64,000 nt of DNA, from assembly GCF_000378225.1 (NCBI RefSeq), contig NZ_KB905144.1:62001-126000 (forward strand), in the 5' to 3' direction. The notes beneath the pieces were generated by a model that saw only the letters and a list, made by a program, of their open reading frames with translations, made no database searches and was not told where the DNA came from. The DNA comes from Methylophilus methylotrophus DSM 46235 = ATCC 53528. GTDB taxonomy: Bacteria; Pseudomonadota; Gammaproteobacteria; Burkholderiales; Methylophilaceae. Shown in pieces: positions 16,088 to 58,097 of the stretch (positions within the stretch are counted from its first letter, which is position 1; the number at the start of each line of letters is the position of its first letter). Both the position numbers and the translations under genes were made by a program.

Positions 16088-16164
16088 GCGCCCGTAGCTC
16101 AGCTGGATAGAGTATTGGTTTCCGAAGCCAAGGGTCGTGGGTTCGACTCCCGCCGGGCGCACCA
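16088..16164 (+). tRNA. tRNA-Arg (anticodon CCG)
   Basis: A complete 77-base cloverleaf. The acceptor GCGCCCG pairs with CGGGCGC (16154-16160), followed by A and an encoded CCA (16162-16164). The anticodon stem TTGGT/GCCAA encloses the loop TTCCGAA, giving anticodon CCG, which reads CGG (Arg). The T arm is GTGGGTTCGACTCCCGC. A terminator follows. Its 3' end is repeated 41.9 kb downstream, marking it as an integration site. Confidence 0.96.
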
Positions 16165-16166
16165 GT
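16146..16166 (+). repeat. attL-like direct repeat (tRNA-Arg 3' end)
   Basis: 21 bases starting ACTCCCGCCGGG and ending GCACCAGT. They cover the 3' side of the T arm and acceptor plus two bases beyond CCA. The same 21 bases, with one C-to-T change, recur in the same orientation at 58077-58097. Recombination at a tRNA 3' end is the usual target of tyrosine-recombinase islands. Confidence 0.82.
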
Positions 16167-16175
16167 AATAAAAGC

Positions 16176-16210
16176 AAAGCCAAGATAGTAATTACTAACT
16201 TGGCTTTTTT
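16176..16210 (+). terminator. tRNA-Arg terminator
   Basis: AAAGCCAAG (16176-16184) pairs with CTTGGCTTT (16199-16207); the inner bases TAGTAATTACTA extend the stem. A T-run closes at 16210. Confidence 0.85.
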
Positions 16211-16211
16211 A

Positions 16212-16255
16212 TGGCCCAACCATGGCCCCACTACGGCCCCATTCTGGCCCATCTT
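16212..16255 (+). repeat. Four tandem 11-bp GGCCC iterons beside attL
   Basis: Four consecutive units, TGGCCCAACCA, TGGCCCCACTA, CGGCCCCATTC and TGGCCCATCTT. The GGCCC core starts at 16213, 16224, 16235 and 16246, so the period is exactly 11 bp. They begin 46 bases past the att core, where arm-type integrase or excisionase sites are expected. The role is inferred; the periodicity is seen directly. Confidence 0.7.
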
Positions 16256-16436
16256 TTTGCTGTAATAATTTCATTAGCAGAAAATGACCATTGGTTTAAA
16301 ACTCAATTGTTATTAGTCTCATATAAATCTCTGAAATCAAGGTTGGATGTTTTAAGCATTTTTGAATTCGCAAGTTATATTGTGCTATCTTGCTCTTTGT
16401 GAAGTTTGTGTTAATAAATCAAACCATGAATCGCCA

Positions 16437-17318
16437 CTAATTTTGTAGACACTGTTCAGCCGATTGATTGAACTGCTTTTCAAAGTCTATCGGAGATAGC
16501 AAGTTATTGGAATTGTGTCTTCGTTTTGAGTTGTAAAAGAACTCGATGTAATCGAAGATATCCCGTTTAGCTTCATCCCGGTCGTTGTATATTTTGCGTT
16601 TAATCCTCTCCGGCTTCAGTAGTTGAAAGAAACTTTCAGCCACGGCATTGTCATGGCAGTTACCTCTGCGGCTCATGCTAGATTCAAGATTGTGTGCTTT
16701 TAGAAACAGCATCCAGTCTTCACTGGTATATTGGCTACCCTGATCCGAATGAATCAATACCTTTTGTTTAGGCTTTCTACGCCACACAGCCATTAGCAAT
16801 GCATCCAATACCAGCTCTTTGGTAATACGCGACTGCATAGACCAACCCACAATGCGGCGGGAGAATAAGTCCATCACAGCAGCTAGATATAACCAACCCT
16901 CATGCGTGCGGATATAGGTAATGTCAGTCACCCATGATTGATTCGGCATCACTGGATTGAATTCACGGTTTAGCCGGTTAGGCGCTGCCACATGGGGCTT
17001 GCCACTATAATGGCGGGGCTTGCGATAGCCAACCAATGCCTTGATCCCATGCAGATGCATCAGCTTATAAACGCGGTTGATCCCAATGTGCTCAACCCAA
17101 GCGCGCAAATCGCTATGCACTTTGCGATAACCATACACACCACCAGACTCTAGCCAGCTTTGCTTGATAAGGCCAGATTGTCGTTGGTTTGTTTGGTAAG
17201 CCTTGGAATAAGGTTTCTTCACCCAAGCATAAAACCCACTCGGATGAACATTCAACACCTTGCATAGCCACCGTATCGGCCAGCAGTCCTGATGCTCTTG
17301 TATAAAGGCATACCTCAA
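16437..17318 (-). CDS. IS3-family transposase, OrfB (DDE integrase domain)
   Basis: The 293-residue catalytic part of an IS3 transposase: an HTH_21-like region (YAFIQEHQDCWPIRWLCKVL then HPSGFYAW), followed by an rve integrase core with DITYI (first Asp), HSDQGSQY (second Asp) and AVAESFFQLLKPE (Glu). This half of the element is open. The reading begins at a TTG with no ribosome site, because OrfB is normally made by -1 frameshifting from orfA; the slippery A7 run is present on the coding strand at 17348-17354. Since orfA is broken, the element is probably not autonomous. Confidence 0.88.
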   Translation of the reverse strand: MRYAFIQEHQDCWPIRWLCKVLNVHPSGFYAWVKKPYSKAYQTNQRQSGLIKQSWLESGGVYGYRKVHSDLRAWVEHIGINRVYKLMHLHGIKALVGYRKPRHYSGKPHVAAPNRLNREFNPVMPNQSWVTDITYIRTHEGWLYLAAVMDLFSRRIVGWSMQSRITKELVLDALLMAVWRRKPKQKVLIHSDQGSQYTSEDWMLFLKAHNLESSMSRRGNCHDNAVAESFFQLLKPERIKRKIYNDRDEAKRDIFDYIEFFYNSKRRHNSNNLLSPIDFEKQFNQSAEQCLQN

Positions 17319-17557
17319 TCTGACTGCTTCGCGAAGTATGCCGCGGCTTTTTTTAAGATATCTCGCTCTTCAGTGACGCGTTTGAGTTCTTTACGCAGAC
17401 GTTGCAGCTCTGCCTGCTCAGCTGTTTTTGCTTGATGCTCTGCTGCATCTGGGCCGTACTTCCTGCCCCAGACATACAGACTATCGACAGTGACTCCAAT
17501 CTGCGTGCCACTTCAGAGACCGCGTATCCGCCTTCCTGGATAACGTTTACCACTCAT
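17315..17557 (-). pseudogene. IS3 OrfA, frameshifted and internally deleted
   Basis: Pieces of a normal OrfA are visible: MSGKRY at the start (ATG 17557), then in another frame VIQEGGYAVSEVARRLE, then in a third VDSLYVWGRKYGPDAAE and on to ERDILKKAAAYFAKQSD. The ~10 residues expected between MSGKRY and VIQEGG are missing, and one base is lost near the end of the helix-turn-helix. Both defects kill the frame before the slippery site. Confidence 0.8.
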
Positions 17558-17697
17558 ACTGCACCTTTCTTTTATTGCCATTATTACGGCTTAAAGGTGT
17601 CTAGTAAATTAGTGGCGATTCAGTATCTGTTTCCATCTACTAGCCTCAATTCTAAAAATTCGAGTAGTGCGAAATGGTAATTTGTCTTTTATCTGAC

Positions 17698-19092
17698 TTA
17701 GCCAGAGTTAGACATACCTAACTTTTCATCCACCCTTTGCAGCAATCTCAAGTTCATCTCACAAAGAGCTCTAAAAGAGTTAGTGATTCGAACATCCTTA
17801 GAGGCCGCCTCCCAAAACTTAATAGCCAGATTAAACGCCAAGCTCCAGGTTGGCTCTTCTTGAGGCTTAGGCAAAGAGAGTTCGAACTCCCTTAAAGGGA
17901 CCTCTCCACCGGCAAGCGGCGCATAGAGCATAGGAAGCATGTCATATGCTGGCGAAAGCTTTAAAGAGGGCTCAATCATAAAGGTAAGATTCCCAAAGTG
18001 CATGTCCGTGTTGGCTATCAGCTTTCCAAACCACCACATTAAAGATATATCCTCAACCAAACCTGAAGGGATTACCCTTTCAGTGACAAGCTTTTGAGCA
18101 GCATCTATCCATGAACCGCTCCCCATTCCGACATAAGCATTATCTAAACTTGCGAGAGAAGCTGTGCCAATTCGCCCGAACTCACCGACACGATCGAATC
18201 GCTCCACCTCCAAAAAGGTACGTCCACCAGCCTGGATTATCCTACTCAAAGGCGCACACAAGCTACCCGACTGCCTAATCACATCCAAAGCCAAGTGCTC
18301 ACAAACAAGCAAATCAGACCATCTCCTGACGGCTGGTGAATCATCTGCCCCAGAAAACTTTACGATCACATAAGGATTAGACGCCTCATTGAGCATACGT
18401 TTAGCTGTAAATTTAGGGAACTCCCCGCCAGCACTTGAGCCCCCTCCTCCAAATCGGGTGGCCGTTTGCGCCAACTCGATATATTGCTGGCTTAACTCAT
18501 CTTCGGTTATGCTGGTTACAGGGTGAATTACGGTATGTAAAAAATCTTGGTACGCGGTATCTCCGATAATTAGATTGCCCTGATTATCGTTTCCTTTAAT
18601 AGTTAATACATGAATCACATCGTCATCGGACCACTCTTCAGGATTTTCTGAGACACCAAAAGTTTTCGCTATTTGCCTAGCTAAACTACGCCCCAAAAAC
18701 CCTTGCGGCCTCATATCAGTCAAAGGATATGGCAACCCATCCCACCAAGGTGACCCATCAATCGGAGCGGGCCAGCCCATTCCTTTGACATCTAAAACAG
18801 CGCCCTCTGGGTCAGCGAGATGCATGTAAGCTAATAAAGACCCTTTACCTTTTTCATCAACCTTGTATACCGGGATAGGCTCAGGGTTTCCTCGCAGGGA
18901 TCGCCGAAGCGCATACCGTGCATTTTTTGTTGTTCCAATACGAATAACTTCATTGCCACGCTCTTGAATAATGCGCAAAATCGTAGGATGGCTAACACCC
19001 AAAGCCTTGGCTAAGGTGGCAGCATCTGCCAGTCTTCGCACTCGCAACTCGATATCTAGCAACGATCTAGCACTTTTGTTGGTTGGTCTCAT
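17698..19092 (-). CDS. HipA-domain serine kinase with fused N-terminal HTH (YjjJ/HipH-like)
   Basis: A 464-residue protein. Residues ~20-50 form a helix-turn-helix (ADAATLAKALGVSHPTILRI). The rest is a HipA-like kinase: a glycine-rich GGGGSSAGGEFPKFTA loop near 215-230, a catalytic segment WWFGKLIANTDMHFGNLTF with Asp/Asn, and the metal-binding LSPAYDMLPM. HipA toxins phosphorylate translation factors such as GltX and normally pair with a HipB antitoxin. Here no hipB is adjacent, and the N-terminal DNA-binding domain makes it resemble E. coli YjjJ (HipH). A 14-base repeat upstream suggests autoregulation. It is part of the island's accessory left arm. Confidence 0.85.
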   Translation of the reverse strand: MRPTNKSARSLLDIELRVRRLADAATLAKALGVSHPTILRIIQERGNEVIRIGTTKNARYALRRSLRGNPEPIPVYKVDEKGKGSLLAYMHLADPEGAVLDVKGMGWPAPIDGSPWWDGLPYPLTDMRPQGFLGRSLARQIAKTFGVSENPEEWSDDDVIHVLTIKGNDNQGNLIIGDTAYQDFLHTVIHPVTSITEDELSQQYIELAQTATRFGGGGSSAGGEFPKFTAKRMLNEASNPYVIVKFSGADDSPAVRRWSDLLVCEHLALDVIRQSGSLCAPLSRIIQAGGRTFLEVERFDRVGEFGRIGTASLASLDNAYVGMGSGSWIDAAQKLVTERVIPSGLVEDISLMWWFGKLIANTDMHFGNLTFMIEPSLKLSPAYDMLPMLYAPLAGGEVPLREFELSLPKPQEEPTWSLAFNLAIKFWEAASKDVRITNSFRALCEMNLRLLQRVDEKLGMSNSG

Positions 19093-19109
19093 GGGAGTTA
19101 TTTAACAAG

Positions 19110-19646: not shown

Positions 19647-20075
19647 ATGGGCCTCGAACAACTCGCCGAACTGAAGAAACAGCTTGCTGAAGAAAAGAAA
19701 TCTAAGCAACCAGCAAATAAAGCAAAAACCAAGAGCACAAATCCTGTCGATCCAGTGGTCTTAATCATAGGCAAGCTTCAGAGGCTTTACCCTAAGGCTT
19801 TTCCAAAGAATCCCTCTCCCAAAGTGCCTTTGAAAATTGGTATTCTTGAAGACCTCCAACTGCGATCTGAAGAGATTGGCATTTCCAACGAAGATTTACA
19901 GTTGGCAATTAAAACGTGGTGCAAAAGCTCTCGTTACTGGCAAGCATGTAAAGAAGGGGCTGATCGTTTAGATTTAGATGGCAATCCAGCTGGAGTAGTC
20001 GAAGCGACTGGTGCGGCCCACGCTAAAGGAATGGTAAGAAAACAGACAAAAGCTAAACAAAACCATCATGAGTAA
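19647..20075 (+). CDS. ProQ/FinO-family RNA chaperone
   Basis: A 142-residue protein: a basic, lysine-rich N-terminus (MGLEQLAELKKQLAEEKKSK), then a FinO domain, about residues 35-120 (VVLIIGKLQRLYPKAFPK, PLKIGILEDLQLRSEEIGIS and WCKSSRYWQACKEGADRLDL), and a basic tail. FinO/ProQ proteins bind structured RNAs and 3' ends of small RNAs, and they are common on plasmids and islands. The 302 bases after it hold no gene that I recognise. Confidence 0.85.
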   Translation: MGLEQLAELKKQLAEEKKSKQPANKAKTKSTNPVDPVVLIIGKLQRLYPKAFPKNPSPKVPLKIGILEDLQLRSEEIGISNEDLQLAIKTWCKSSRYWQACKEGADRLDLDGNPAGVVEATGAAHAKGMVRKQTKAKQNHHE

Positions 20076-23771: not shown

Positions 23772-24236
23772 ATGAAAGTCATAGCAAAAAACTTATCCGG
23801 ATCAGGGCTCAAAATTGGCATTGTGTTATCAAGATTTAATAGTGCGATTGGTGAAGGCCTACTGGAGGCCTGCACGGAGAAATTACTGGCACTGGGTGTC
23901 AGTAGCGATGCTGTCACCATAGCGACAGTGCCGGGTGCTTTGGAAATTCCATTGGCTTTGCAACACATGGCGCTCAGTCAGCAATATGACGCCCTGATTG
24001 CCCTGGGAGTCATCATCCGCGGAGAGACTTACCACTTTGAAGTTGTTTCAAATGAGTCAGCACGCGGCATATCCGAAGTGCAACGAAACACCGGTATACC
24101 AGTGGCTAATGCGATCCTGACCACGGAAAATGATGACCAGGCTTTGGCTAGAATAAAAATAAAAGGTACAGAAGCGGCGGAAGTGGCCTTAGAAATGCAT
24201 CACCTCATCAAAGTGACAGACAATCCTGAAACGTGA
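23772..24236 (+). CDS. ribH: 6,7-dimethyl-8-ribityllumazine synthase
   Basis: A 154-residue lumazine synthase. Motifs are [50 protein letters not shown] and [13 protein letters not shown], all typical of RibH active sites. It condenses ArP with dihydroxybutanone phosphate to make the riboflavin precursor. In this island it may be an extra copy that supplies flavin for Tmd (FMN) and ETF (FAD). I see no FMN riboswitch upstream; the leader instead has TAC-centred palindromes. A housekeeping ribH would be expected elsewhere. Confidence 0.92.
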
Positions 24237-30518: not shown

Positions 30519-30565
30519 GTTTTTTCGCCTTAATTCTACTTAAAAATAAATGTCGCAAAAGGGGC

Positions 30566-33467: not shown

Positions 33468-33469
33468 GA

Positions 33470-35693: not shown

Positions 35694-35696
35694 TCA

Positions 35697-37968: not shown

Positions 37969-40191
<2,223 letters not shown>

Positions 40192-43305: not shown

Positions 43306-43315
43306 GATTTACCCT

Positions 43316-45934: not shown

Positions 45935-46444
45935 TTACTCCCTTTCAAATCGCATATCATATTTTTAATAGTTACTTATTACTGAACGAACCCTAAAAGG
46001 TGAGGCTTGTTGCCAAGATTGGTCTTTTTACATCGTTGAATACTTGTTATTTTTCAAAGCGTATTCACTTCATCTTTTATGTGACACCCCAGCTTCTTCT
46101 GTTCATCCTCAGCAAATAAATAGTGCAGTGACGCGGTTCAACAATAGCGAGGTTATTTTTTTTAATATAGAAATAACTGGCATGCAGTTCAGTTTTTGAC
46201 GGCCGCAGTGATAGTGATGCCACTTTTTACTACCAGTCGCCAGTTTTTACCATTCCCACTAAGTCTTAATACCTTGGAAGTATTGTCCAGATATATTTTT
46301 AGAGATAAGTTAACCGTCCTACATACCTCAATACACATCGTCGTCAAGACAAAAATCAAAAAACTGACCACTGATAAAATTAATTAAATCAGAGGCTTAA
46401 AAAATTCACGAATATGACGGATGTTGCAAATTAGGAGCAATAGC
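45935..46444 (+). promoter_or_regulatory. Promoter region of AraC gene with tandem ATGCC-TTTTT sites
   Basis: On the + strand ATGCCACTTTTTACTA (46217-46232) is followed 20 bp later by TCGCCAGTTTTTACCA (46237-46252). They match the motif seen upstream of mauF, the cytochrome c gene and tatA. The tandem spacing of two helical turns fits a two-domain AraC-type protein binding its own promoter. No other gene is visible in this 510-base gap. Confidence 0.6.
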
Positions 46445-47455: not shown

Positions 47456-47562
47456 TAAATATCATCATTTTAATGTATGCTGTAATTCAGTTTGAGAGTC
47501 AGGTATTCATTTTATCTTTTATAAATTTCAAGATAATCATAAAGTCCCTGAAAGCAAAAAAT

Positions 47563-47577
47563 GGGGCCTAAGGCCCC
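47563..47577 (-). terminator. Terminator after cytochrome c gene
   Basis: GGGGCC-TAA-GGCCCC; on the minus strand it continues ATTTTTT. It is 23 bases after the stop of the cytochrome gene and lies beyond the convergent AraC gene. Confidence 0.85.
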
Positions 47578-47599
47578 GGAAATGGAGATCAGCCATTTT

Positions 47600-47944
47600 T
47601 TACAAAGCAGTAATCCACTGTACAACTTCGTTGAATTCCTCATCGGTCAATTTGCCAGCATTGGGTGGCATAGGTAATACGCCCCAATTCCCACGTCCGC
47701 CTGTTTTAATTTTTTCGACCAAGGCCGCCTGTACATCCTGGCCTTTATATTTGGCAGAAACATCTTTAAATGCCGGTCCAACTTTGCGACTTTCGACATT
47801 ATGACAAGCCAGGCAACCGCCTTTATCTGCCAGCGCCGCACCATCAGCCCAAGCTGTTTGTGAGGCCATGCCCAGCGCTGCAATAAACAGTAGACTGGTG
47901 AGGGTGGACATGGATAGCCATGCGTGTTTTGATTGAATGTTCAT
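47600..47944 (-). CDS. Small periplasmic cytochrome c, candidate MADH acceptor
   Basis: A 114-residue protein with a signal peptide (MNIQSKHAWLSMSTLTSLLF, cleavage near AWA), haem site KGGCLACHNVE and a probable methionine ligand in GVLPMPPNAG, as in class I cytochromes c551/c552. I chose ATG 47944; the reading frame extends upstream without support. It is just downstream of mauN but has its own promoter with the ATGCC-TTTTT motif, so it is coregulated with mau. The cluster has no amicyanin gene, so this cytochrome may take electrons from MADH; this is inference. Confidence 0.8.
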   Translation of the reverse strand: MNIQSKHAWLSMSTLTSLLFIAALGMASQTAWADGAALADKGGCLACHNVESRKVGPAFKDVSAKYKGQDVQAALVEKIKTGGRGNWGVLPMPPNAGKLTDEEFNEVVQWITAL

Positions 47945-47999
47945 CTTGAAATCCAGTGTATTTGATATAAGAATTCTAATGGTCAACAAGAGTGGCTTA

Positions 48000-48015
48000 T
48001 GGCAAAAATCGGCAT
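48000..48015 (-). promoter_or_regulatory. ATGCC-TTTTT motif upstream of cytochrome c gene
   Basis: On the minus strand ATGCCGATTTTTGCCA, 56-71 bases upstream of the start at 47944, the same orientation relative to the gene as at mauF and tatA. Confidence 0.65.
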
Positions 48016-48053
48016 CACTTAGCCTCTGCGTCATCTGCTTGAAATAAGTACTG

Positions 48054-48902
48054 CTAGTGCCCGCCCACAACAGGAATGCCTTTAAACTTGCCCTGTTTTT
48101 TAAAGCTGAGTCGCATGGCTAAAGCACCTGTCGAACACTGATCCAAGCATGCCCCGCAGCGAGTACAATCGCCCGATGTCACAAAAGTTGCTTTCTTGGC
48201 TATCACGGGTGCCAGCACGTGTGGTTCCGGGCAGACCTTGATACATTTAGCGCATCCACCACATGCACCTACCTGAGTCGCTTTAACGCGCAAGCGTCCC
48301 TCGCGTCCCAGTTCTGAATAAAACGCACCCACCGGGCAAACATGACCGCACCAGCCACGACGCGTCACTAACACATCAAACAGGAAAATACTCGCCAGTA
48401 CCGTTGCACCTGCAACTGAGCCCCACATCAGTTCGCGTTGAAACAAGGTGATTGGGTTAATCGCTTCCCATGCCAGAGTGCCAGATAGTAGCGACAGCAG
48501 AAGTGATAACATTAATATCGTCACGCGTATATTTTTTGAGAGTGTGAAATTGCTTTTAATATTTAACTTTTGCCGCACCCAATAAGATAGATCTGTCACC
48601 AGATTAATTGGGCATACCCAGCTGCAGTAAATGCGCCCGCCCAACAGCAAATAAAACACGGCAACGATAGCTACGCCAAACAGGGCAGCCTTGCCCAAAG
48701 GAGCTCCGGCCAATAGCGATTGCAGCCAGATATAAGGATCTGTCAGACCAATTCCGAACCAGACACTGGAAGACAGATTGCCTTGTGCAAGATAGCCACC
48801 AGCTGGCAACTCAACCGTAAAGGCAGCAATAATGAGCAACTGGATGATACGTCGGCTGAATAACCAGCGATTGCGAAAGAACATGGCTTGTAACTGTCGC
48901 AT
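48054..48902 (-). CDS. mauN: Methylamine utilization ferredoxin-type protein MauN
   Basis: A 282-residue membrane ferredoxin of the NapH type: about four or five membrane helices, CSWVCPINLVTDL and CGHVCPVGAFYSEL in the loops, then two C-terminal [4Fe-4S] sites (CGGCAKCIKVCPEPHV and CTRCGACLDQCSTGAL). It is the last gene of the mau operon, five bases after mauM. With MauM it is thought to supply electrons or redox control for MADH maturation; not essential in all species. Confidence 0.93.
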   Translation of the reverse strand: MRQLQAMFFRNRWLFSRRIIQLLIIAAFTVELPAGGYLAQGNLSSSVWFGIGLTDPYIWLQSLLAGAPLGKAALFGVAIVAVFYLLLGGRIYCSWVCPINLVTDLSYWVRQKLNIKSNFTLSKNIRVTILMLSLLLSLLSGTLAWEAINPITLFQRELMWGSVAGATVLASIFLFDVLVTRRGWCGHVCPVGAFYSELGREGRLRVKATQVGACGGCAKCIKVCPEPHVLAPVIAKKATFVTSGDCTRCGACLDQCSTGALAMRLSFKKQGKFKGIPVVGGH

Positions 48903-48906
48903 GTGC

Positions 48907-49587
48907 TTACCAGCGTCCTACCGATTGCGCACCTTCAACACCTAAACCTAATTCACGCGGCAGTACGCGAATGGCCGCCTCAGCGAGTACACAGTGCTTT
49001 TCGCAGGTACCGCAACCGGTACATTTGTTACTATCTACGGTTGGGATTTGCAACACACCGCGTTCGTTTTTGATTGGCTTTAATGAGATGGCCTCCCCAA
49101 TAATCGGGCATACGCGAACACAAATACTGCAGGTGAGGCCTTTGTAGTTGAGGCAGGTTTCATGTCCTACCAACACCGCAACTCCCATATCGGCTTTTTT
49201 TATATCGGTCACCAAAGGGCTTAATGCACCTGTCGGACAGGCTCGCGCGCAGGGAATATCAGTACACATGCGACAAGGATCTTCACGGGCAACAAAATAA
49301 GGTGTGCCGGTGGGCGCTGGATCGCTCCAGCGTGCCAGATGCAAAATATCATACGGACAAGCTTCTACGCATAAACCACAGCGTATACAGGCAGCATTGA
49401 ACTCAGGCTCTGGCAAGGCGCCTGGGGGTCTTAATACGCTAGCCGCGCGGGCCGGACGCGAGTCCAGTACTGCTTTACCAAACATGGTAACTACGGTCGC
49501 TACCCCTAGCTGGCGGAAAATCTTGCGAAAAACCTTACGCCGTTCAGGCTCGGCGACTTCTGCTGCTGCAGATGTTTTGTCTGCCAT
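48907..49587 (-). CDS. mauM: Methylamine utilization ferredoxin-type protein MauM
   Basis: A 226-residue periplasmic polyferredoxin of the NapG type. The N-terminus has an RRKVFRKIFRQ twin-arginine-like start and a hydrophobic stretch. Four cluster sites follow: CIRCGLCVEACPYDILH, CRMCTDIPCARACPTGA, CSICVRVCPIIGEA and CTGCGTCEKHCVL. It overlaps mauL by 44 bases and precedes mauN. Confidence 0.93.
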   Translation of the reverse strand: MADKTSAAAEVAEPERRKVFRKIFRQLGVATVVTMFGKAVLDSRPARAASVLRPPGALPEPEFNAACIRCGLCVEACPYDILHLARWSDPAPTGTPYFVAREDPCRMCTDIPCARACPTGALSPLVTDIKKADMGVAVLVGHETCLNYKGLTCSICVRVCPIIGEAISLKPIKNERGVLQIPTVDSNKCTGCGTCEKHCVLAEAAIRVLPRELGLGVEGAQSVGRW

Positions 49588-50083
49588 CGAAAATCTCCTG
49601 TCGGGTAAATCTTGGCAAGTCAGTCCTGGTAACGGAAGAGTACGTATTAGAGGAATTGATTAGCAAATTGGCGCGAATAATTGGATGTATCCAGCACTGC
49701 AGCACAAACTCGCCTTTGGCATCCCTTGGAACCTGCCAGCGAACAATGGTGTCCGGCGTTTGCACCCCCATATTCACCATAGTTCCGTCCGGATAAGTCA
49801 CATAAATACTATGCGAAATATCGGAACGATTGTGGATGGTAATGATGTCCCCTGGTTGAGGCACAAAATCGACAGGCACGAACTCATGATCAGACAAGAT
49901 CATGGTATGGTCTTTAGAGAGAACGTTCGCACTGCTTATTGGCGCATGATGCTTCATGCTACAGCTAGCGAGGTAGATCGCCAGCAATACCAATAAAACA
50001 TACATCGCCGCCCAGGTCGATAATTTTCGCGATGCGCTCAGCAATCCAGGTAAACATGTTTTCATCTGCTTTGCCATCTTCAT
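49544..50083 (-). CDS. mauL: Methylamine utilization protein MauL (cupredoxin-like)
   Basis: A 179-residue exported protein with a membrane or lipoprotein leader (LLVLLAIYLASCSMKH; LASC fits a lipobox). The cupredoxin-like body has ITIHNRSDISHSIYVTYPDG and FVLQCWIHPIIRANLLIN, so His, Cys and His are placed as in a type 1 copper site. MauL is needed for MADH activity in some methylotrophs. ATG 50083 is preferred to the adjacent GTG. It overlaps mauM. Confidence 0.88.
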   Translation of the reverse strand: MKMAKQMKTCLPGLLSASRKLSTWAAMYVLLVLLAIYLASCSMKHHAPISSANVLSKDHTMILSDHEFVPVDFVPQPGDIITIHNRSDISHSIYVTYPDGTMVNMGVQTPDTIVRWQVPRDAKGEFVLQCWIHPIIRANLLINSSNTYSSVTRTDLPRFTRQEIFDGRQNICSSRSRRA

Positions 50084-50098
50084 CACATTCCATCATTA

Positions 50099-51106
50099 CT
50101 ATTCAGGCATTGCCGGTGGCTGAATATTCAAGGCACCGCCATCCAGGCTCTGGATAAACGCAATCAGCTCGCTTTCTTCCAGTTCAGAAAGCTCGAATTT
50201 CTGCATATCCTTGGAAAGGCTATCGCGCTGGATCGCCCCACTTTTGTAATGCTTGATCACGGCCTTCAGGCCACGAAGGGAGCCATCATGCATATAAGGT
50301 CCTTCCATTGGCAGGTCGCGCAAAGAAGGTGTTTTAAAGGCATGCTGCATCAATGTCACCTGTGCAGGCACTTTGGCACCCCGTCCTAAATCCTTGCTCG
50401 GCAAGCCAATATCATGAAAGCTGTCGTCGGTAAACCGCCATGAACTATGGCACGCAACACAGTTGGCTTTGTCTTTATTGTTAAATACGGCAAAGCCTCG
50501 TTTGGCCTGTTCACTGATGGCCTGTTCATCGCCTTCTACCCAACGATCAAACGGGGCCTGGTTAGACACTAACGTGCGCTGGAAACTGGCCAATGCCTGG
50601 GTGATGCGTTGCTGGTTAATATTGTGATCGCCAAAGGCCTGGGTAAACAAAGCTCGGTAACCTTGAATTTTCTGCAATCGCTCCACCAGACTGGTGAGGT
50701 CAAAATTCATTTCATGCGCTGTGGTAATCGGCAACACAGCTTGCGCTTCTAGGGTAGCCGCACGGCCATCCCACATAAGTGCGCTTAACCAGGCACTGTT
50801 TAATACCGTCGGAGTTCGACGGGCATTGTTCACACTTTCTGCCTGTAACGGCAAGCTACGGCCATCACTCCAGCGCTGGTCTGGTGAGTGACAGGTGGCA
50901 CAAGCCATCCCGCCTGACCTTGAAAGGCGCTGATCGAAAAACAGGGTTTTTCCCAGCGTTGCCTTTTCAAGCGTCAGGGGGTTAGACAGGGGTGATGGAA
51001 TACTGGATGGCCGCTTAAATTTTTCCCTCGGAGGAAGATCGGCGGACCAGGCAGTATTCACCACCATCAGTGTGCTCAACATTAGAACCCATCTTCTAAA
51101 CAACAT
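50099..51106 (-). CDS. mauG: Dihaem enzyme MauG (TTQ biosynthesis)
   Basis: A 335-residue periplasmic dihaem protein related to bacterial cytochrome c peroxidase. The signal peptide ends near AWSAD, and the haem sites are [17 protein letters not shown] and [11 protein letters not shown]. MauG uses a bis-Fe(IV) state to finish the tryptophan tryptophylquinone cofactor of MauA, working on partly oxidised pre-MADH. Order and length fit the mau cluster. It lies 15 bases before mauL and 36 bases after mauA. Confidence 0.94.
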
Positions 51107-51141
51107 ACTGATTCTTAACAGAACTTATGCCATTTGGGCAA

Positions 51142-51705
51142 TTAGCTTGCTTTACCGACGATAGGTGAAATGGTGCAGTGGTAAGTCATTGCATCATTGT
51201 CGGCACCGAAGCACCAAACGATATCGTTGTTGAACTCTGGACGGTAAACCGGTAACTCACCTTGTGTATTAACGCAGTTACAACGGCCACAAGTCTGTTT
51301 ACCACAGCAGTCACGGTAGGCAATCAGGTAAGTCTGCTGGTCGCCCGGATTAAAGCAACTCGCTACCCAGGAGCTTGGAGACAAGCTACTGCCTGGAGGG
51401 CAAGAAGTTAATGAACCGCCACAGCAATCACACAGATTGCCGTCAATCGTACAATGGCGCCAGTAGTCACAAGCCTTGGGATCCTTGTCTTGAGGTTTAA
51501 AACCAGCGCGGGTCAGGTTACCTGTTGTAGCAGCCTGTACTTCGCCCCCCAGACGTGAACGACGGTCTACCGGCAACAATGGCAATAACGCAGAACCAAC
51601 TAGGAACCCGCCCAAACGACCGATAAAGCTACGTCTGCCTGTTTTGCTGGCGGTAGTACGTGCCAGTTTCTCAATTTTTGAGTCAAATCCAGATTCTTTT
51701 TTCAT
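51142..51705 (-). CDS. mauA: Methylamine dehydrogenase light (beta) chain
   Basis: A 187-residue precursor. The leader has a twin-arginine motif (KTGRRSFIGRLGGFLVGSAL), so it is exported folded by Tat. The mature part has 14 cysteines for its disulfides. The two tryptophans that form the TTQ cofactor are Trp113 (PSSWVASCFN) and Trp164 (DIVWCFGADN), 51 apart as in the Paracoccus protein (57 and 108). The C-terminus is AMTYHCTISPIVGKAS. MADH oxidises methylamine to ammonia and formaldehyde in the periplasm. Confidence 0.97.
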   Translation of the reverse strand: MKKESGFDSKIEKLARTTASKTGRRSFIGRLGGFLVGSALLPLLPVDRRSRLGGEVQAATTGNLTRAGFKPQDKDPKACDYWRHCTIDGNLCDCCGGSLTSCPPGSSLSPSSWVASCFNPGDQQTYLIAYRDCCGKQTCGRCNCVNTQGELPVYRPEFNNDIVWCFGADNDAMTYHCTISPIVGKAS

Positions 51706-51743
51706 TTCGTTAATCTCTCCGTAATCAATACACGAATCAGCAA

Positions 51744-52379
51744 TTAATGCACTTTGTTCGCGGTTACTTGTTTAAATTTAGGCGCGGTGGAATCATCCTT
51801 GAGATAATTCTGCAAGGTAGAATGTCCGTGGCGTATAGTTTCGAAAAGGCTTTCTACATGCTCGCGTGTATTGCACAGGCCTTTCGCCAGGATTTTTCCA
51901 TCTTGATCCAGCAGTACGCCGTAAGGGACTTTTGAAACCTGATAACGCATACCGATTTCAGCGGATACCACATATAGCTCACCGTCTAACGGATGATCTT
52001 TCAGAAATTGACGGTGTTCCGCCTGCGTCCCATCACTGATCAGAATTACGTCCGTCTCTTCAATCGCTGCCACTGAGCGGATAATAGGCAATAGCTTCTG
52101 GCAGATCGGGCAGGATGGGCCGGTAAACATCATCAGGCTAGGACGACCTGGTGTAATTGAACGCCCCACCAGCACAGGTTCGCCTTCGAAAGTATTCACG
52201 TTGAAAATCGGTGAGCGTTCACCAATTTCTGGACCATGATCAATCATCATGGCACCGAGTGGCGCAGAACGCTCATGTAACAACCCGATTTGACGGATCA
52301 CGCCGAGCATTAATGCGGCTAACGCCAAAAATGCGCCCCATAAAAGCACATTTGATGCAATCAAAATTCCACTAGTCAT
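51744..52379 (-). CDS. mauD: Methylamine dehydrogenase accessory protein MauD
   Basis: A 211-residue thioredoxin-like protein: N-terminal membrane helix ([20 protein letters not shown]), then a thioredoxin fold with [20 protein letters not shown] (CPIC active site) and a cis-proline region [12 protein letters not shown]. It forms or isomerises the many disulfides of MauA. It overlaps mauE by eight bases and precedes mauA by 38. Confidence 0.95.
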
Positions 52380-52944
52380 TTGAATTTCCTTTATAAATCT
52401 CTAATTTGTTTTTGGCAGCAGGGAAACCGACCATCATGTCTGCCCCCATGTAAATCAATGACAGCATGATGGCCGAGGCAAGCGCAGTAAGCACGGATTC
52501 CAAGTTAATGCCTGAAATCTCCAGTGGCACTACAACGACATACAAGCTCAGGCCGGCCAGTGCTAACGCTCTCAGTACATGGAACATACCGATTCGGCTC
52601 ATGCTGGTTGGGCGACGCACACAACCACAATCGATGTGGGTACGGCCGCGACCAACATTCACCGCGATGGCAAACGAGAATAGGATGAACAGTCCGGCTG
52701 CAACACTGGCCGCCATCACATGTAGTGTCGGCACCAGCAAGGCAATTGCGCATCCCAGCTCAAGCCATGGCAACACCTTCGCAAACGGCGACACCAGAAA
52801 AGCAGGCAGCAACTTGTAATTCGCTACCACGCCCAAAAATTCGTCCTGATTTCTCAGTTTTGGAATCGCCGCTGCGGCCAGAATGAGCGCCACAAACAGC
52901 GATGCAAATATCGCAACCGTAGGATCATTCACTATCCATTCCAT
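52372..52944 (-). CDS. mauE: Methylamine utilization protein MauE
   Basis: A 190-residue membrane protein with four predicted helices (for example [20 protein letters not shown] and [17 protein letters not shown]). It has a CGCVRR site in [20 protein letters not shown]. MauE/DoxX-like proteins act with MauD in MADH disulfide formation. I chose ATG 52944 (MEWIVNDP); a TTG at 52965 would overlap mauB. It overlaps mauD. Confidence 0.93.
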
Positions 52945-52951
52945 GATGTAC

Positions 52952-54169
52952 TCACTTATCCGCAATGAAAATCATGGAAGGAGCACGACCCAGTTCATCC
53001 AATGAACCCAATGCTTTCCCAGTCACAGCATCAAAAGTGAACAACGTTTTTGCCTCTTCAGACACGGCGTACAAATAGGGTTTTTCGTCCTGACTGACTG
53101 CAATCGAATTGATTTCATGCTTCAACTCAATTCGACGCAGGCGCTTGCCGGAAGTCGCATCTACGACGAACACATAACGACTAGGCAATTTATGTGTCCA
53201 TTTTTCGCGTTGGTCTGCCAGCAAGTAGAGTTCGTTACGTGCTTTGTGGAAAGTAATAGTTTGCCAGCCGCCTGGACGCCATTTGTCTGCTTTCTCCTTA
53301 TCTGTGAACACGTCAATTGGCTTCAAGAACTCTGCACCAGACTCGGATAGTTTGGCCTGGAAAATCTTGCCTTCATAGGTAGGCCAAGCCAGGTGATTAT
53401 TTGAGTTGGAGTAATAAGGATTATTTAGCAAATACTCTTTTTCAGTATGAAATACCTTGGTTGGCTTCTGCTTGGTGTTGCCCTTGTTGTCGTAGCTGAA
53501 CTGCATCAAAGAACCATCTCTACAATGCATGAAAAAGTTCTGATTTGCGGTTGGGAAAATATGATAACAATCAGGCACATTCATCATTTTCACAAAAGCC
53601 TTTTGTTCCAGATCGACCAACCCGACACCTGGTGATGGAGAGAATTGCTGGAACAGGAAATGCTTATCATCGGTACTCAAACCAGCAGTGCGCTCAAACA
53701 CCCCGGTCAAGAAGCGACCTTCAGGAATATCAATATCAGCAATCGGCTCATGCGTTCTGCTATCTATCAACTCCAGATAATCATCGCGCTTGCCCCGCGC
53801 TACGCGGGAATACATAGTGCTCGCGATAGCCACAAACTTGCCATCAGAGGCTATCATGACGTTCGGCAATTTACCCGCATCTGTCATACCTAGTAATTTG
53901 CTCGATTTGCCATCTACCGTATAAACGGTAGAGGTCATATGGAAGTTACCTGGATCCAATACATACACACGCTTCGCATCACTGGGAGGTGCAACTGCGA
54001 TAGAAGTCTCGTCCTGCAGTTTTGCGGTAATCTCAGAACCCAATTGTTTTGGCGTTGCATCTGCCATAGCCAGACTGCTGGATAGCATGAGAGCTGCCAA
54101 TACCAGCCCCCCTGCTAACCCTGCCGGCTTGCTGCGACGAATCATCGATGGATGATCGAATGTTGTCAT
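52952..54169 (-). CDS. mauB: Methylamine dehydrogenase heavy (alpha) chain
   Basis: A 405-residue exported beta-propeller. The leader is [20 protein letters not shown] and a hydrophobic stretch ending AMADA. The propeller blades show [60 protein letters not shown] and [16 protein letters not shown]. It forms the alpha2beta2 MADH with MauA. The length matches known MauB. It is second in the operon, 54 bases after mauF. Confidence 0.97.
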
Positions 54170-54223
54170 AAATCCTCCTATATTTTTTAAATGGATAGAA
54201 CTAGTTTTGGTGCGGCTACCGGC

Positions 54224-55081
54224 TTACAACAGCACTAGCATTAAAGCGGCTGACGCAATCGCCAATAACAAGAAACCATCAATCTCAACAGCCCTTTCCT
54301 GCCAGCGGGCCAACCAGGCTTGTACTGTCTGATTCTTAACAGGAAAGAAGTTAACTGCCACTGGCAAGCATCGGCCAACATTAAATACGGCAATCACGGC
54401 AATCGCGGTTTGGATGCTGCCACTCAGCAAGGCCACCCCAGTGACGATATAAAGCATCGGGGTTTGCACGTAAGTGAGGTAATTCATGCCTAATGAGAAG
54501 CCATACAGCAGACCGATCACGGATGAACGAAAGCGAAAACGCGCATCATGTGGCACTTGTGCTCTACGTTGAGGATAAGGCATCTTGAGGAAACCGAACT
54601 GATGTAGGCCATAACCAATCGCAAGTACCGCCAGACCAATCACGGTGTATTGCAAAGGCACATTGCCAAACAATAGCCAGCCCAGCCCACCCAACATGCT
54701 CCCCAACACCACGGCACCAATGGCGTAACCGACAGCATGCGTGAAGAAGGTGGGTGTCCAACGGACGACAGAACCAAAAGAGTACCTACCAGCTGGTCTC
54801 AGCAGACTCAGACTGGAATAGCCACAAGGCGACCAGGTAGACAATAGACCACCAGCGAACGCCAGCAGAACAAACAGCGCCATTAACGCATCTTCCGTTG
54901 GGAGGACGCTATGAAAGACGCGACCGGCAATCACACCGGTCACCACACCAGTGAGCATCATGAAAAATCGCGTTTCCATGGATTGCGATTTTGAAAAATG
55001 ATAGGCATCCGGGACGCAGGTCTCAGCTTTGTAGCTTTGGGACGAACGGCTGGCCACGGTTGCCCCCATATTCATACTCAT
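54224..55081 (-). CDS. mauF: Methylamine utilization protein MauF
   Basis: A 285-residue membrane protein with seven or so hydrophobic segments and GGLLSTWSPCGYSSLSLLRP, as in the CcdA/DsbD-like MauF. A cytoplasmic leader of ~35 residues precedes the first helix. It is essential for MADH synthesis in Paracoccus. It is the first gene of mauFBEDAGLMN; mauC (amicyanin) and mauJ are absent. Its promoter has the ATGCC-TTTTT motif. Confidence 0.94.
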   Translation of the reverse strand: MSMNMGATVASRSSQSYKAETCVPDAYHFSKSQSMETRFFMMLTGVVTGVIAGRVFHSVLPTEDALMALFVLLAFAGGLLSTWSPCGYSSLSLLRPAGRYSFGSVVRWTPTFFTHAVGYAIGAVVLGSMLGGLGWLLFGNVPLQYTVIGLAVLAIGYGLHQFGFLKMPYPQRRAQVPHDARFRFRSSVIGLLYGFSLGMNYLTYVQTPMLYIVTGVALLSGSIQTAIAVIAVFNVGRCLPVAVNFFPVKNQTVQAWLARWQERAVEIDGFLLLAIASAALMLVLL

Positions 55082-55156
55082 ATTTCCTCCTTAGGCCTTA
55101 GGGCCTTACCACGTTTTGAATGAAACATGAATATAGCGATCTTGATCCATGGGCTT

Positions 55157-55223
55157 TAGCAAAAATCGGCATACCCCCTCCGGGGCACGATTTAAGAAAG
55201 CATAGTCATGCCACTTTTTGCTA
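55157..55223. promoter_or_regulatory. mau promoter with two divergent ATGCC-TTTTT sites
   Basis: On the minus strand ATGCCGATTTTTGCTA (55172-55157) lies 76-91 bases upstream of mauF; TATATT follows nearer the gene and may be its -10. On the plus strand ATGCCACTTTTTGCTA occupies 55208-55223. A GC dyad, CCCC-CTC-CGGGG type, at 55174-55186 lies between them. No gene that I can support follows the plus-strand site; 55224-55564 looks non-coding. Confidence 0.65.
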
Positions 55224-55564
55224 TCGGAGACTCTTCTTTGCCTTAAAGAATATGTAAGAGATCAAAAAAGAAAGAGACTAAAAACCAGTTATGTACTCAG
55301 TACTAAGTGGCCAAATAACTTCTTTAAGGTTTTCAGGTTTATTCGTAAAGCAGCTGCCACTGGCATCAATTTGGTATCACTGACCCTACAATTCGAACCG
55401 TTTAAGCTGTCGGTGGGGAAGACGTGGCTGAAACCGATTTAGACCGAGTGAAATATTTGAAATATTAATTTTTGGCTGCTCAATGACCAACTGAAGTAAA
55501 TATTTAACCGCTTTATAAGTCACTGAGCGACTTAAGTGTCAAATTTATATCAAGGCCTCTCTGC

Positions 55565-56311
55565 TCAGCTCGCAGTTAATGAGGCAGTTTCTGTGGGGTT
55601 ACGCTTATGAAAAAATACGCTCGCGACCAGCAAACCAAGTTCATATAAGAACCATAAAGGGATAGCCAGCATAAACTGTGAAATGATATCAGGCGGCGTA
55701 AAAATGGCTCCAATCACAAACGCGCCTACGATCACATATCCGCGGCTTTCTTTCAAGGTCTTCAATTCGACCATCCCCATACAAGAAATCGCCACCACAA
55801 TGATGGGCGTTTGAAAAGCCACTCCAAATGCCAATGTGATTGAAATAAGAAAATCGAGATAATTGCCTATTTCCGTCATCACAGCTACGCCCACTGGGGC
55901 ACTTCCGATTATAAACTTGAACACTACTGGGATTACGACATAAAAGGCAAAAGAGGCACCCAGTATAAACAGTGACAAACTCGCCAGCACACCGATAACG
56001 CCAACAAGTTTTTCTTTTGGGTACAGGCCAGGCTGTATAAACTTCCACAACTGGTACAAAGTATTGGGCAGGCTTAAAACAAAAGCCATATACAAGGCAA
56101 TCTTAAGCGGGATAAAGAAAGGTGACGTCACCGAAGTCGCGATCATTTTGCCACTGGCGGGTAGCTGACTTAGCAGAGGTGAAACAAAAAACTGATGCAG
56201 TTGATTGGCAAACGGTAGGGTGACAAGCGCTGCCAGCAGCAACCCCGCCAGGATACGGATACACCGCGTGCGCAGTTCGTAAAAATGACTGAGGGTATCG
56301 TTATATTCCAT
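55565..56311 (-). CDS. tatC: Sec-independent protein translocase TatC
   Basis: A 248-residue protein with six membrane helices. Family features are SHFYELRTRCIRILAGLLLA at the N-terminus, LPNTLYQLWKFIQPGLYPKE and FVIGAIFTPPDIISQFMLAI. It recognises twin-arginine leaders. It follows tatB by four bases. Next to mau, it can export MauA, whose leader is GRRSFIGR. A housekeeping Tat system would be expected elsewhere. Confidence 0.94.
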   Translation of the reverse strand: MEYNDTLSHFYELRTRCIRILAGLLLAALVTLPFANQLHQFFVSPLLSQLPASGKMIATSVTSPFFIPLKIALYMAFVLSLPNTLYQLWKFIQPGLYPKEKLVGVIGVLASLSLFILGASFAFYVVIPVVFKFIIGSAPVGVAVMTEIGNYLDFLISITLAFGVAFQTPIIVVAISCMGMVELKTLKESRGYVIVGAFVIGAIFTPPDIISQFMLAIPLWFLYELGLLVASVFFHKRNPTETASLTAS

Positions 56312-56315
56312 TTTG

Positions 56316-56663
56316 CTATTTCTGACCAGTCATTTCTACATAGACATTCTCGACAAAAGGTTTGGCTGACGAGCCTGTCTTAGAAACCTCAATTGGAAGA
56401 GCCATATCCTGAATCTCACTATGCACATCAATCAAGGTTGACTGCATAGCCAGCAATTTCTGTTGAGCATCTGCTGTGGCTTTTTTCATGGTATCCAATG
56501 CCACCTGGCGATCAATATCTTGTTTGACCCCGGAAATGTAGCGCTGAACACGACCATACATCAGGCCATAGGTTCTGGCCAGCTTAGGAAGCTTCTCCGG
56601 GCCAATCACAATCAACGCCACCACGACGATAACGATTACTTCGGAAAAACCGATCTCAAACAT
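56316..56663 (-). CDS. tatB: Sec-independent protein translocase TatB
   Basis: A 115-residue protein beginning [20 protein letters not shown], then [20 protein letters not shown] and a long amphipathic/coiled region ([20 protein letters not shown]). This is the TatB N-terminus with its FEIGF start. It forms the receptor with TatC. Its start overlaps the tatA end by eight bases. Confidence 0.92.
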
Positions 56664-56829
56664 GTTTTGATAGGTCTTCTATCTCAGCAGGCTGCTCGTG
56701 CATCGCCTCTTTAAAGTTTTTGACAGCCCCTCCCAGATCGCTGCCAAAATTTCTCAGTCGTTTGGTCCCAAACACCAAAGTAACTATAGCCAACACAATG
56801 ACCCAGTGCCAAATGCTAACACTTCCCAT
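56656..56829 (-). CDS. tatA: Sec-independent protein translocase TatA
   Basis: A 57-residue protein, [20 protein letters not shown], then [20 protein letters not shown] and [17 protein letters not shown]. It has the short N-terminal helix, the [14 protein letters not shown] hinge and the amphipathic F-K-x-A segment of TatA. It opens the tatABC operon; its stop overlaps the tatB start (ATGTTTGA). The ATGCC-TTTTT motif is 61-76 bases upstream. Confidence 0.93.
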
Positions 56830-56889
56830 AAAAACTCCATGGATACTAAAAATACCCTACATATCATCGGTCATAATTCCTAATGTGGT

Positions 56890-56905
56890 TAGTAAAAATT
56901 GGCAT
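56890..56905 (-). promoter_or_regulatory. ATGCC-TTTTT motif upstream of tatABC
   Basis: On the minus strand ATGCCAATTTTTACTA, in the same orientation relative to the gene as at mauF and the cytochrome gene. Confidence 0.65.
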
Positions 56906-57084
56906 AACATTTGTTATCCAATTCAATACACATCTGAGATGTAACTAAGGGGCAGCACTAGAGCTTAAAAACAAAAAGACTCAGGAGGCTATGAGTCGAT
57001 ACAGGTTTATTTGACATAATTACATTGAGTAGAAATGATACTCGACAGGCCTACTATCCAACATCTCAACCTTTGCATTAACGA

Positions 57085-57351
57085 TCAATTGCATATCACC
57101 CTGCTCATATAATCCGCTAGTCGATTAAAAATCTCATTGAACTTGTCAGCTCCAAATATCAGCGGCATCTTTGCGCTTTTAGCCATGACAGAATGAGGGT
57201 CTTCAATCTCATAAATCACCGCCTCATGCCTTGCTAATGAATGAACCTTAAATCCAATTAGCCGAGGCTCTGGCTCAAGTTTAAATGAATTACACTCAAG
57301 AAATAGAAGTTCTTGAACCTCTCCATTTTGCTTTATCTTCTGACGCTTTGG
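57085..57351 (-). pseudogene. Open fragment beside the recombinase remnant
   Basis: An open frame of 88 codons, from a stop at 57352-57354 to a TGA at 57085-57087, reading QELLFLECNSFKLEPEPRLI then GFKVHSLARHEAVIYEIEDP. It lacks a usable early start codon and overlaps the recombinase fragment in another frame. It may be a displaced 3' part of that gene or a truncated neighbour. I do not recognise it. Confidence 0.35.
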
Positions 57352-57906
57352 TTAACATGCGAATTGAGTATTTCTCTCCAAAAATATTGATTACTATCTA
57401 CCCTCTTTAAACTGACTTGCTTACGCAAGGCATCTGCCCTCTTCCTCGACCACCGAGCTACTATTGCTGAAGTGATAGCCACTGTTTTCAAACCGCGATC
57501 CATGCAGGCTCGAATACTCACATGATGTAGATGCATATAAGAGGCGTAACTGGTGATTATGGAGTTGTGCCCAAAGTCTGTCGCAAATTGATTTAAATTA
57601 TTTTTGAACCCACTATCGTCCTCTGATAAAGCCTGTATCAGCACATTAGAGATGACAGTGTCCGATAGAGAGTGGAAAGAGATTTTCTGATCGCCCGTTG
57701 CTTGTTTAAGCAGCCGAGCAAGCTGACATCACTGCCAGTAATGTCCCCTAGACTTTGATAGTCTCTGGCGCTTTGCACAGGTGCTCCTGTAAAGCCTTAG
57801 CTAAAAACAATGGCAGGGGGTTTAACTAAAATTTGAGAGGCCGGAACAAAATGCTCTCCAACTAGATTAGCTGCACCAGGAGCAATGATGGGAAGTTCAA
57901 AATAAA
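57333..57906 (-). pseudogene. Tyrosine recombinase (integrase) C-terminal remnant
   Basis: Broken reading on the minus strand. From about 57906 one frame gives ELPIIAPGAANLVGEHFVPA and then a stop, GFTGAPVQSARDYQSLGDIT and a frameshift near 57720, then LARLLKQATGDQKISFHSLS and DTVISNVLIQALSEDDSG, and finally QFATDFGHNSIITSYASYMH. The box H-S-L-S replaces the usual HxLR, and GHNSIITSYASY aligns with the GHxS...Y of tyrosine recombinases, giving the nucleophile Tyr. It lies beside the attR-like repeat, as an island integrase would. It is too damaged to work. Confidence 0.6.
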
Positions 57907-58076
57907 TGACCTATTCGGTAATTGACAGTGCAATCCCCCATTCCTCAGTAGCATATTAGAATAGGTATATCATTAACATAACCATTAGGCAGATTCATCA
58001 TCATAGCCATTAGTGTTAGGCATGCCGCTTTGGATAACTCCGTCTCCTCAGTCATGCTTTTCAATTGCCGACATAA

Positions 58077-58097
58077 ACTCCCGCCGGGTGCACCAGT
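58077..58097 (+). repeat. attR-like direct repeat of the tRNA-Arg 3' end
   Basis: The 21 bases match 16146-16166 except for T instead of C at 58089, in the same orientation. They begin 39 bases before the end of the first GGDEF/EAL gene, outside any tRNA. They would mark the far end of a 41.9-kb element. Confidence 0.8.

Follow-up and report, generated by a model that had tools for sequence, protein, structure and literature searches.

The question raised by this locus is whether a whole route from trimethylamine (TMA) to ammonia is carried by one mobile unit. The window, by which we mean the entire stretch of 64,000 nucleotides that was analysed, comes from Methylophilus methylotrophus DSM 46235 = ATCC 53528 (genome G000, contig C4, positions 62001-126000; a further 40 kb beyond the window was also read), and its genes for the catabolism of methylated amines lie between a tRNA-Arg(CCG) gene and a second copy of the 3' end of that tRNA. 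A first-pass annotation had taken this block for a single 42-kb mobile island integrated at the tRNA. The comparisons reported here point instead, with reasonable confidence, to a composite catabolic locus within a zone of plasticity extending from the tRNA past the end of the window to 64904, in which two independent modules stand side by side, one for TMA and dimethylamine (DMA) and the other for methylamine dehydrogenase (MADH). The two modules are separate, are differently placed in relatives, and are not recent arrivals; how each of them moved we infer. The features on which the argument turns are listed below, with the strand where a feature has one:

16088-16164, plus strand: tRNA-Arg(CCG), called by ARAGORN; its 3' end is the left repeat copy (16146-16166)
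16170-16211, plus strand: terminator-like hairpin of the tRNA, read by eye and still adjoining the tRNA
20378-47467: TMA/DMA module, 27 kb, delimited with Pfam and NCBIfam
47556-56829: MADH module, 9.3 kb, delimited with Pfam
56830-58076: degenerate DNA, 40.6% GC, the supposed dead recombinase; no recombinase detected
58077-58097, plus strand: right repeat copy (20/21 of the tRNA 3' end), an att-like scar
58098-64000, and on to 64903 beyond the window: foreign segment with two GGDEF/EAL genes and the start of a TetR-type gene; not core flank

The modules do not travel together. A search of 187 genomes of the family revealed tmd-type matches (E 1e-150) in 32, of which 30 were at least 86% identical (the one in G145 partial) and two (G137 and G148) held only a 65% paralogue, and mauA (E 1e-20) in 15; both genes were present in four genomes (G000; Methylophilus sp. 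QUAN, G009; Methylophilus sp. 42, G013; and G027), and the modules adjoin each other only in G000. Within the genus tmd occurs in 3 of 22 genomes and mauB in 5 of 22 (8 of the 61 genomes searched for mauB, counting G000 itself and two weak matches, in G052 and G032), with mau present without tmd in Methylophilus sp. 14 (G002) and M. rhizosphaerae (G017). Since the survey includes drafts and incomplete genomes, absences are soft. We also scanned public records, in which 156 stretches encode a MauA relative; among the 80 loci kept (48 of them at least 20 kb long, G000 not included), no TMA-module gene was found at 45% identity or more, the exceptions being dmm-like and permease genes of two Methylorubrum loci.

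Placement differs as well. In strain QUAN the TMA module starts about 4 kb behind tRNA-Arg and is followed by nine genes and then by mau; G007, which is without mau, has the same nine genes in order, with two additional ones, followed by the genes found after mau in sp. 42; relative to sp. 42 it is an empty mau site. In sp. 42 and sp. 14 mau comes after the same GGDEF gene. The TMA module of sp. 42 (C1:27.7-54.0 kb) and its mau genes (2.466 Mb) are 0.55 Mb apart if the contig is circular, and the modules stand apart in G027 too. The TMA units of QUAN and sp. 42 have both ends in common over 26.3 kb at 96.06% identity, and the unit lies behind tRNA-Arg in the former and beside ssb in the latter.

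The repeat itself, as first described, was borne out: the tRNA 3' end ACTCCCGCCGGGCGCACCAGT (16146-16166) recurs downstream at 58077-58097 in the same orientation with 20/21 identical positions, which is the direct repeat that marks tRNA-integrated islands. The next best match to these 21 bp within 16.2-64 kb is 14/21, and the chance expectation for a 20/21-type match is about 1.4e-6 (uniform bases). A canonical insertion at a tRNA 3' end is expected to shift the native terminator to the far copy. Here the 42-bp terminator stretch remains beside the tRNA; it is 41/42 alike after the same tRNA in sp. 42 and is present in G012, which has another tRNA allele. The sequence after 58097 differs from it, so that the native post-tRNA sequence has not been displaced to the far end, and terminator-only queries elsewhere in the region gave best scores of 28-32, the same as shuffles. 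A decayed terminator copy was found at the right end of the insert of G004, the nearest relative, scoring 46-50 with two queries and 36 with a third, for which 30 shuffles reached a maximum of 32. Retention of the terminator at 16170-16211 thus weighs against canonical insertion of one unit at the tRNA end, and we take the 21-bp repeat most readily for a scar left by tRNA-targeting elements at this site, not for the ends of one mobile 42-kb unit. The tRNA occurs with two T-stem alleles (GGG/CCC and GAG/CTC, both found in G020), which may record past integrations, though descent alone may explain them.

The far boundary of the unshared DNA does not coincide with the repeat either. Homology between G000 and G004 ends at 16172 and restarts at 64904, inside a PAP2-family gene; all DNA between the tRNA and 64904 differs from this nearest relative, and the unshared part therefore runs 6.8 kb past the right copy, to 64903. 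The first-pass annotation had placed core-looking genes outside both copies, which stands on the left only. On the right, the EAL genes were considered as core flank and rejected: the segment 58098-64903 is missing from G004, the first EAL protein has a best genus match of 47% over part of its length, and GC is 39.0%. The DNA at 58077-63132 has only fragmentary matches, in 4 other genomes of the 187. Likewise, tmd, etf, dmm, mau and tat do lie between the copies, but not exactly bracketed by them: the catabolic genes span 20378-56829, and 4.2 kb and 1.2 kb of other DNA separate them from the repeats. It had been proposed that a strain without the island should show tRNA-Arg joined directly to the DNA after 58097. 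In the nearest island-free strain, G004, the tRNA is followed by 9.9 kb of different DNA, encoding an AcrB-type pump and TetR regulators, and then by the PAP2-family gene; the EAL genes are missing. At no tRNA site that was read does the tRNA adjoin the right flank; some contigs end soon after the tRNA. With no clean empty site among those read, the comparison weakens the single-island model but falls short of strictly excluding it.

A dead tyrosine recombinase had been proposed at the far end, at 57-58 kb, and this candidate found no support. With stop codons read through, PF00589 (nine genomes scanned) gave seven matches in G000, none of them on contig C4. The 103-aa and 129-aa frames at this place have no meaningful Pfam match up to E 10, and the 129-aa frame searched against plasmids with tblastn gave nothing better than E 6. 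In the family-wide protein search the best match of the 103-aa frame (E 2e-5, 24% identity over 58 residues) was to a 323-aa protein, whose place is not among the PF00589 matches of its genome. No integrase was thus recognisable at this locus, and the Pfam hits of the 38 open reading frames scanned (16437-57644, with shorter frames outside that scan) include no relaxase or conjugation gene.

Nevertheless, tRNA-Arg(CCG) is a genuine integration hotspot, with recombinases at it in four relatives. The tRNA query matched in all 22 genomes of the genus, and the downstream DNA was read in most, though not all, of them. In G006 a 383-aa tyrosine integrase gene ends 6 bp from the tRNA (L089:2313-3464), perhaps a live element at the same site. 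In G010 and G018 genes for 550-aa large serine recombinases have ends that overlap the tRNA gene (L093:6598-8261; L107:1072-2735). G020 has a displaced tRNA 3' half 2.24 kb away, of a different T-stem allele, overlapping the end of a 547-aa serine recombinase gene (L090:14722-18626), and G007 has a partial second copy of the tRNA end. Behind the tRNA of sp. 14 lie an integrase gene and a ProQ gene; 10 other proteins there include none for conjugation. Just after tRNA-Arg in sp. 42, a PhzF-like gene stands between two short copies of a different tRNA-like 3' half (L078:2183-3638), where ARAGORN calls no tRNA; this is perhaps a second small insertion.

We then considered the age of the modules. 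Mean protein identity between G000 and QUAN was 91.1% for mau (8 proteins) and 92.0% for the TMA module (13 proteins), as against 96.8% for the core marker; identity at four-fold sites was 52.0% for mau and 49.6% for TMA, with 58.4% and 53.9% for two core genes. In both modules divergence equals or exceeds that of the core genes measured, indicating that neither is recent. The mau tree, (G017,(G000,(G013,(G002,G009)))), and the TMA tree, (G000,(G009,G013)), both fit the core marker within the genus, whose inner forks are partly open. A recent acquisition of either module, which we considered, is supported neither by divergence nor by these trees. Between genera, mau conflicts with the core marker, since Methylophilus mau groups with G106, G107 and G109 and not with G027, G136 and G200 (midpoint root), a conflict that points to a likely old transfer of mau between genera. 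An intergenus transfer of tmd was also considered, on the strength of 96-97% identity to G027, G160 and G162. We abandoned it for three reasons: Tmd varies very little (Paraburkholderia plasmid records still reach 83-84%), the 12 remaining TMA proteins are closer to QUAN (86-100%) than to G027 (64-92%), and the TMA tree groups G000 with QUAN and sp. 42. GC is 45.5% in the TMA module and 48.2% in the MADH module, compared with 51.1% in the left core and 49.8% in the right core; the value of the MADH module falls inside the range of core windows of its length and that of the TMA module outside it.

Several points weigh against two independent modules. In both G000 and QUAN the TMA module follows this tRNA at a distance of about 4 kb and in the same orientation, and four genomes have mau downstream of the tRNA, a shared placement that makes a shared ancient insertion near the tRNA possible; no clean empty site at tRNA-Arg was seen among the sites read; and without a tRNA-targeting element that formerly ended at 58097, it is difficult to account for a second copy matching at 20/21. 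Moreover, a single 1298-aa marker underlies the tree, the four-fold comparison uses two core genes with sites near saturation, the mau genes of M. rhizosphaerae are more diverged from G000 than the core marker suggests (86.7% vs 96.3% protein identity), and 10-kb flanks of the public mau loci would in this layout reveal ribBA/folE2 but not tmd, 32 of the 80 being shorter than 20 kb.

Two further explanations are compatible with the composite locus. The first, which is a serious possibility though somewhat short of an even one, is that the right repeat is part of a different and older element (the EAL/EAL/TetR segment or a predecessor) unrelated to the catabolic genes. The segment after 58097 has the lowest GC of the region and a composition strongly deviating for its length, 1.2 kb of degenerate DNA lies between the tat genes and the repeat, and unrelated cargo sits behind the same tRNA in other strains; no match to the tRNA end was found, however, near the far end of the segment at 64904. 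The second, toward which we are a little more reserved, is that the TMA module alone is a mobile 27-kb block which, helped by IS3-family elements or short repeats, landed beside a resident mau cluster. This would agree with the same module ends at two sites in QUAN and sp. 42. It would also agree with the IS3-type end (21/22 like the insertion sequence of the window) at most 10 bp from the module end in sp. 42, with the IS3 element 2.8 kb from the module in G000, and with a short imperfect repeat at the insertion point in sp. 42, read from the junction sequences. At the ssb site of QUAN, which is without the module, the two flanks of sp. 42 are joined (96.6% and 97.1% identical, with an 11-bp overlap). 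However, DNA of the ssb flank that is common to sp. 42 and other genomes is missing in QUAN, which may therefore have a deletion there and not show the original empty site; the regions scanned show no insertion sequence ends flanking the module on its two sides; and 96.06% identity between the two units is barely above one backbone segment (94.8%; another, 89.3%), so that no recent jump is needed. A composite transposon with IS3 on both sides was rejected, since the window has a single IS3 copy and the module of sp. 42 a solitary end.

The weakest explanation, a single 42-kb integrative island inserted at the tRNA 3' end by a tyrosine recombinase that has since decayed and carrying the whole TMA-to-ammonia pathway, would account for the correctly oriented 20/21 repeat, the hotspot with its recombinases in relatives, the catabolic genes between the copies and the core-unlike GC of the TMA module, but we regard it as improbable given modules that are separate in QUAN, sp. 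42 and G027 and differ in composition, mau without tmd in two relatives, the undisplaced terminator, the missing recombinase, the unshared DNA past the right copy and the absence of any sign of recent arrival.

Turning from the origin of the composite locus to its content, further features of the window are these:

16427-17622, minus strand: IS3-family insertion sequence (transposase frame 16437-17318, Pfam rve/HTH_21; inverted ends 31/40 identical)
17698-19092, minus strand: HipA-like protein (PF07804, E 2.6e-18)
19647-20075, plus strand: ProQ/FinO-family protein (PF04352)
29478-32118, minus strand: dimethylamine monooxygenase genes, for a HODM-like subunit, a reductase and a DmmA-family protein (PF11927, PF22290/PF22289; NF041259)
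37969-40161, minus strand: tmd, trimethylamine dehydrogenase (PDB 1djn/2tmd, 1665.6 bits; Oxidored_FMN)
40334-42025, minus strand: permease of the trimethylamine N-oxide (TMAO) permease family (NF053774, 756.1 bits, cut-off 690)
55082-55564: gap in place of the Gcw_chp and AraC genes found in other Methylophilus mau modules

The IS3, HipA and ProQ/FinO genes reported at one end by the first-pass annotation are confirmed by Pfam and all lie at the tRNA end; the ProQ/FinO protein is 89% identical to the one behind the same tRNA in sp. 14. The TMA/DMA module begins with an MCP-like gene, a permease, lumazine synthase, an SMR pump, and a LuxR regulator with a histidine kinase and a PAS protein, continues with the dmm genes, etfA/B, a HEAT-repeat protein, a membrane-type Fe-S/CCG protein, tmd and a TMAO/TMA-type permease, and ends with ribBA, folE2, a cupin, a Gcw_chp remnant and an AraC regulator. 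As in other clusters of this type, trimethylamine dehydrogenase (TMADH) stands together with electron transfer flavoprotein (ETF), and the core from LuxR to folE2 is colinear in G009, G013, G027, G160, G170 and G185. The MADH module runs cytochrome c, mauN, mauM, a 180-aa protein that we take from its position to be MauL, mauG, mauA, mauD, mauE, mauB, mauF, tatC, tatB and a putative tatA-like sequence. In it mauB, mauE, mauA and mauG were recognised by Pfam, mauD, mauM and mauN by generic domains and position, and mauF (54224-55081) by position, having no Pfam match at E 0.001. The same mau order is found in G002, G009, G013 and G017 and in other genera.

The pathway that the two modules would form is predicted from known enzyme families. 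Judging by family membership, trimethylamine would enter by permeases, and TMADH would pass electrons to ETF and perhaps also to the 717-aa Fe-S protein. The TMA/DMA module would convert trimethylamine to dimethylamine and then methylamine, Dmm making the methylamine, and the MADH module would convert methylamine to formaldehyde and ammonia.

Next, we examined the neighbourhood of the TMA module with regard to the N-methylglutamate (NMG) pathway. GmaS scored above the TIGR03105 cut-off in 65 of the 187 family genomes, and in 24 of the 26 other family genomes with tmd at 86% or more and no mauA (the exceptions being G145 and G162). The gmaS gene is 13-29 kb from tmd on the ribBA/folE2 side in 12 of these 26, which is the side on which MADH stands in G000; G201 and G202 have gmaS on the opposite side, at a distance of 38-41 kb, and in ten genomes it is on another contig. 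Ten TMA regions of other genera were mapped far enough. In eight of them (G104, G128, G134, G143, G170, G185, G204 and G210; six were picked for the proximity of gmaS) NMG genes with the same orientation follow folE2 at a distance of roughly 1-11 kb. NMG genes were assigned by GmaS above the cut-off together with neighbours that resemble parts of sarcosine oxidase and glutamate synthase, below the cut-offs of those families. These eight clusters share with ours the same TMA core, from etf to folE2, in the same order, and differ in that NMG genes follow folE2 there and AraC and MADH genes follow it here. The NMG genes of G000 lie on contig C5 next to ssb (L315:12322-14117; L315:14441 to L316:3881), where sp. 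42 has its TMA module, and G000 thus seems, from its gene content, to have both MADH and NMG; in G004 NMG is 35 kb from ssb. It is conceivable, if rather doubtful, that a slot following the ribBA-folE2 end of the TMA/DMA module is the preferred place for a module that oxidises methylamine and that this last step is swapped as a cassette between a few fixed chromosomal sites. NMG would then occupy the slot in many other Methylophilaceae, and MADH would occupy it in this Methylophilus, with NMG beside ssb instead. Against such an exchange, the slot contains neither NMG nor MADH in G027 and G160, whose TMA modules resemble this one most closely among the modules mapped outside the genus.

Mobile mau islands have been published before, and the earlier papers provide the following comparison. 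M. methylotrophus 'White' has a MADH island, for which earlier speculation of a mobile module is repeated and mau phylogeny is said typically to agree with 16S (PMC4109929); mau lies at three sites in three Methylobacterium strains (PMC5023228) and, in M. extorquens AM1, inside a 60-kb island with insertion sequence and tRNA borders (PMC2680597). The locus described here resembles these in that the MADH cluster varies between close strains and lies in a plastic region near a tRNA or insertion sequence. It differs in that MADH directly abuts a TMA/DMA module, and in that within Methylophilus the mau tree fits the core marker, with no recent transfer seen. Methylotrophy islands of Paracoccus and Roseobacter (PMC4543880) are likewise compact and join several methylated-amine steps; in P. 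aminophilus, however, TMA is oxidised via TMAO, a chromid carries NMG and the chromosome carries mau, whereas here TMA dehydrogenase stands beside MADH. Both dmd-tmd and mauA/B have been reported from Methylophilus sediment genomes (PMC8399692), and mau expression is covered in PMC3728764. No title or abstract opening among the open-access matches listed concerns a joined TMA and MADH block, or an exchange of NMG for MADH beside tmd. The locus is a real and readable example of how a pathway is put together, of an ordinary kind. It shares with tRNA-integrated islands the repeated tRNA end and the hotspot, and lacks a recombinase, a disturbed terminator and an end of unshared DNA at the far repeat. 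The picture of one mobile island conferring growth on TMA is replaced by one of two old modules, with their own sites and losses, joined behind a tRNA hotspot. The locus is an instance in which tRNA repeats around a catabolic block need not mean that the block moved as a unit, and it offers a concrete system in which to compare relatives for their methylamine step close to the TMA module, be it MADH or NMG.

Some smaller observations concern the modules. No credible Gcw_chp or AraC remnant remains between mauF and tatC in G000, where G002, G009, G013 and G017 have the order mauF-Gcw-AraC-tat; mapped mau regions of other genera have AraC near mauF in 6 of 6 and tat genes in 5 of 6. The AraC gene of the TMA module (46421-47455), which adjoins mau in G000, is 79% identical to the TMA-linked and 56% to the mau-linked copy. 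The Gcw_chp gene in the TMA module of G000 is broken into short frames (45095-45786), and QUAN has a 286-aa frame at that place. Tat translocase genes (55565-56663) accompany MADH in other genera too, and the MauA leader keeps a consensus RR motif that would fit their presence beside mau.

Flavin and pterin supply genes occupy 23772-24236 and 42136-44113 of the TMA module, with ribBA and folE2 found in nearly all mapped TMA regions. Lumazine synthase also occurs in the TMA modules of G027 and G160, and neither it nor the SMR gene has a match in QUAN or sp. 42. A HEAT/LRV-repeat protein and the 717-aa Fe-S/CCG protein (34281-37850) lie between etf and tmd in the mapped TMA regions, and the latter may be an ETF:quinone oxidoreductase of unusual type. 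Ten genomes of other genera carry a gene 64-65% identical to tmd, in addition to tmd in eight and alone in G137 and G148, which perhaps encodes a dimethylamine dehydrogenase. Finally, positions 620-4516 of the window encode a 1298-aa FAD/Fe-S oxidoreductase with GlcD-like and GlpC-like parts, present in all 26 genomes searched for it.

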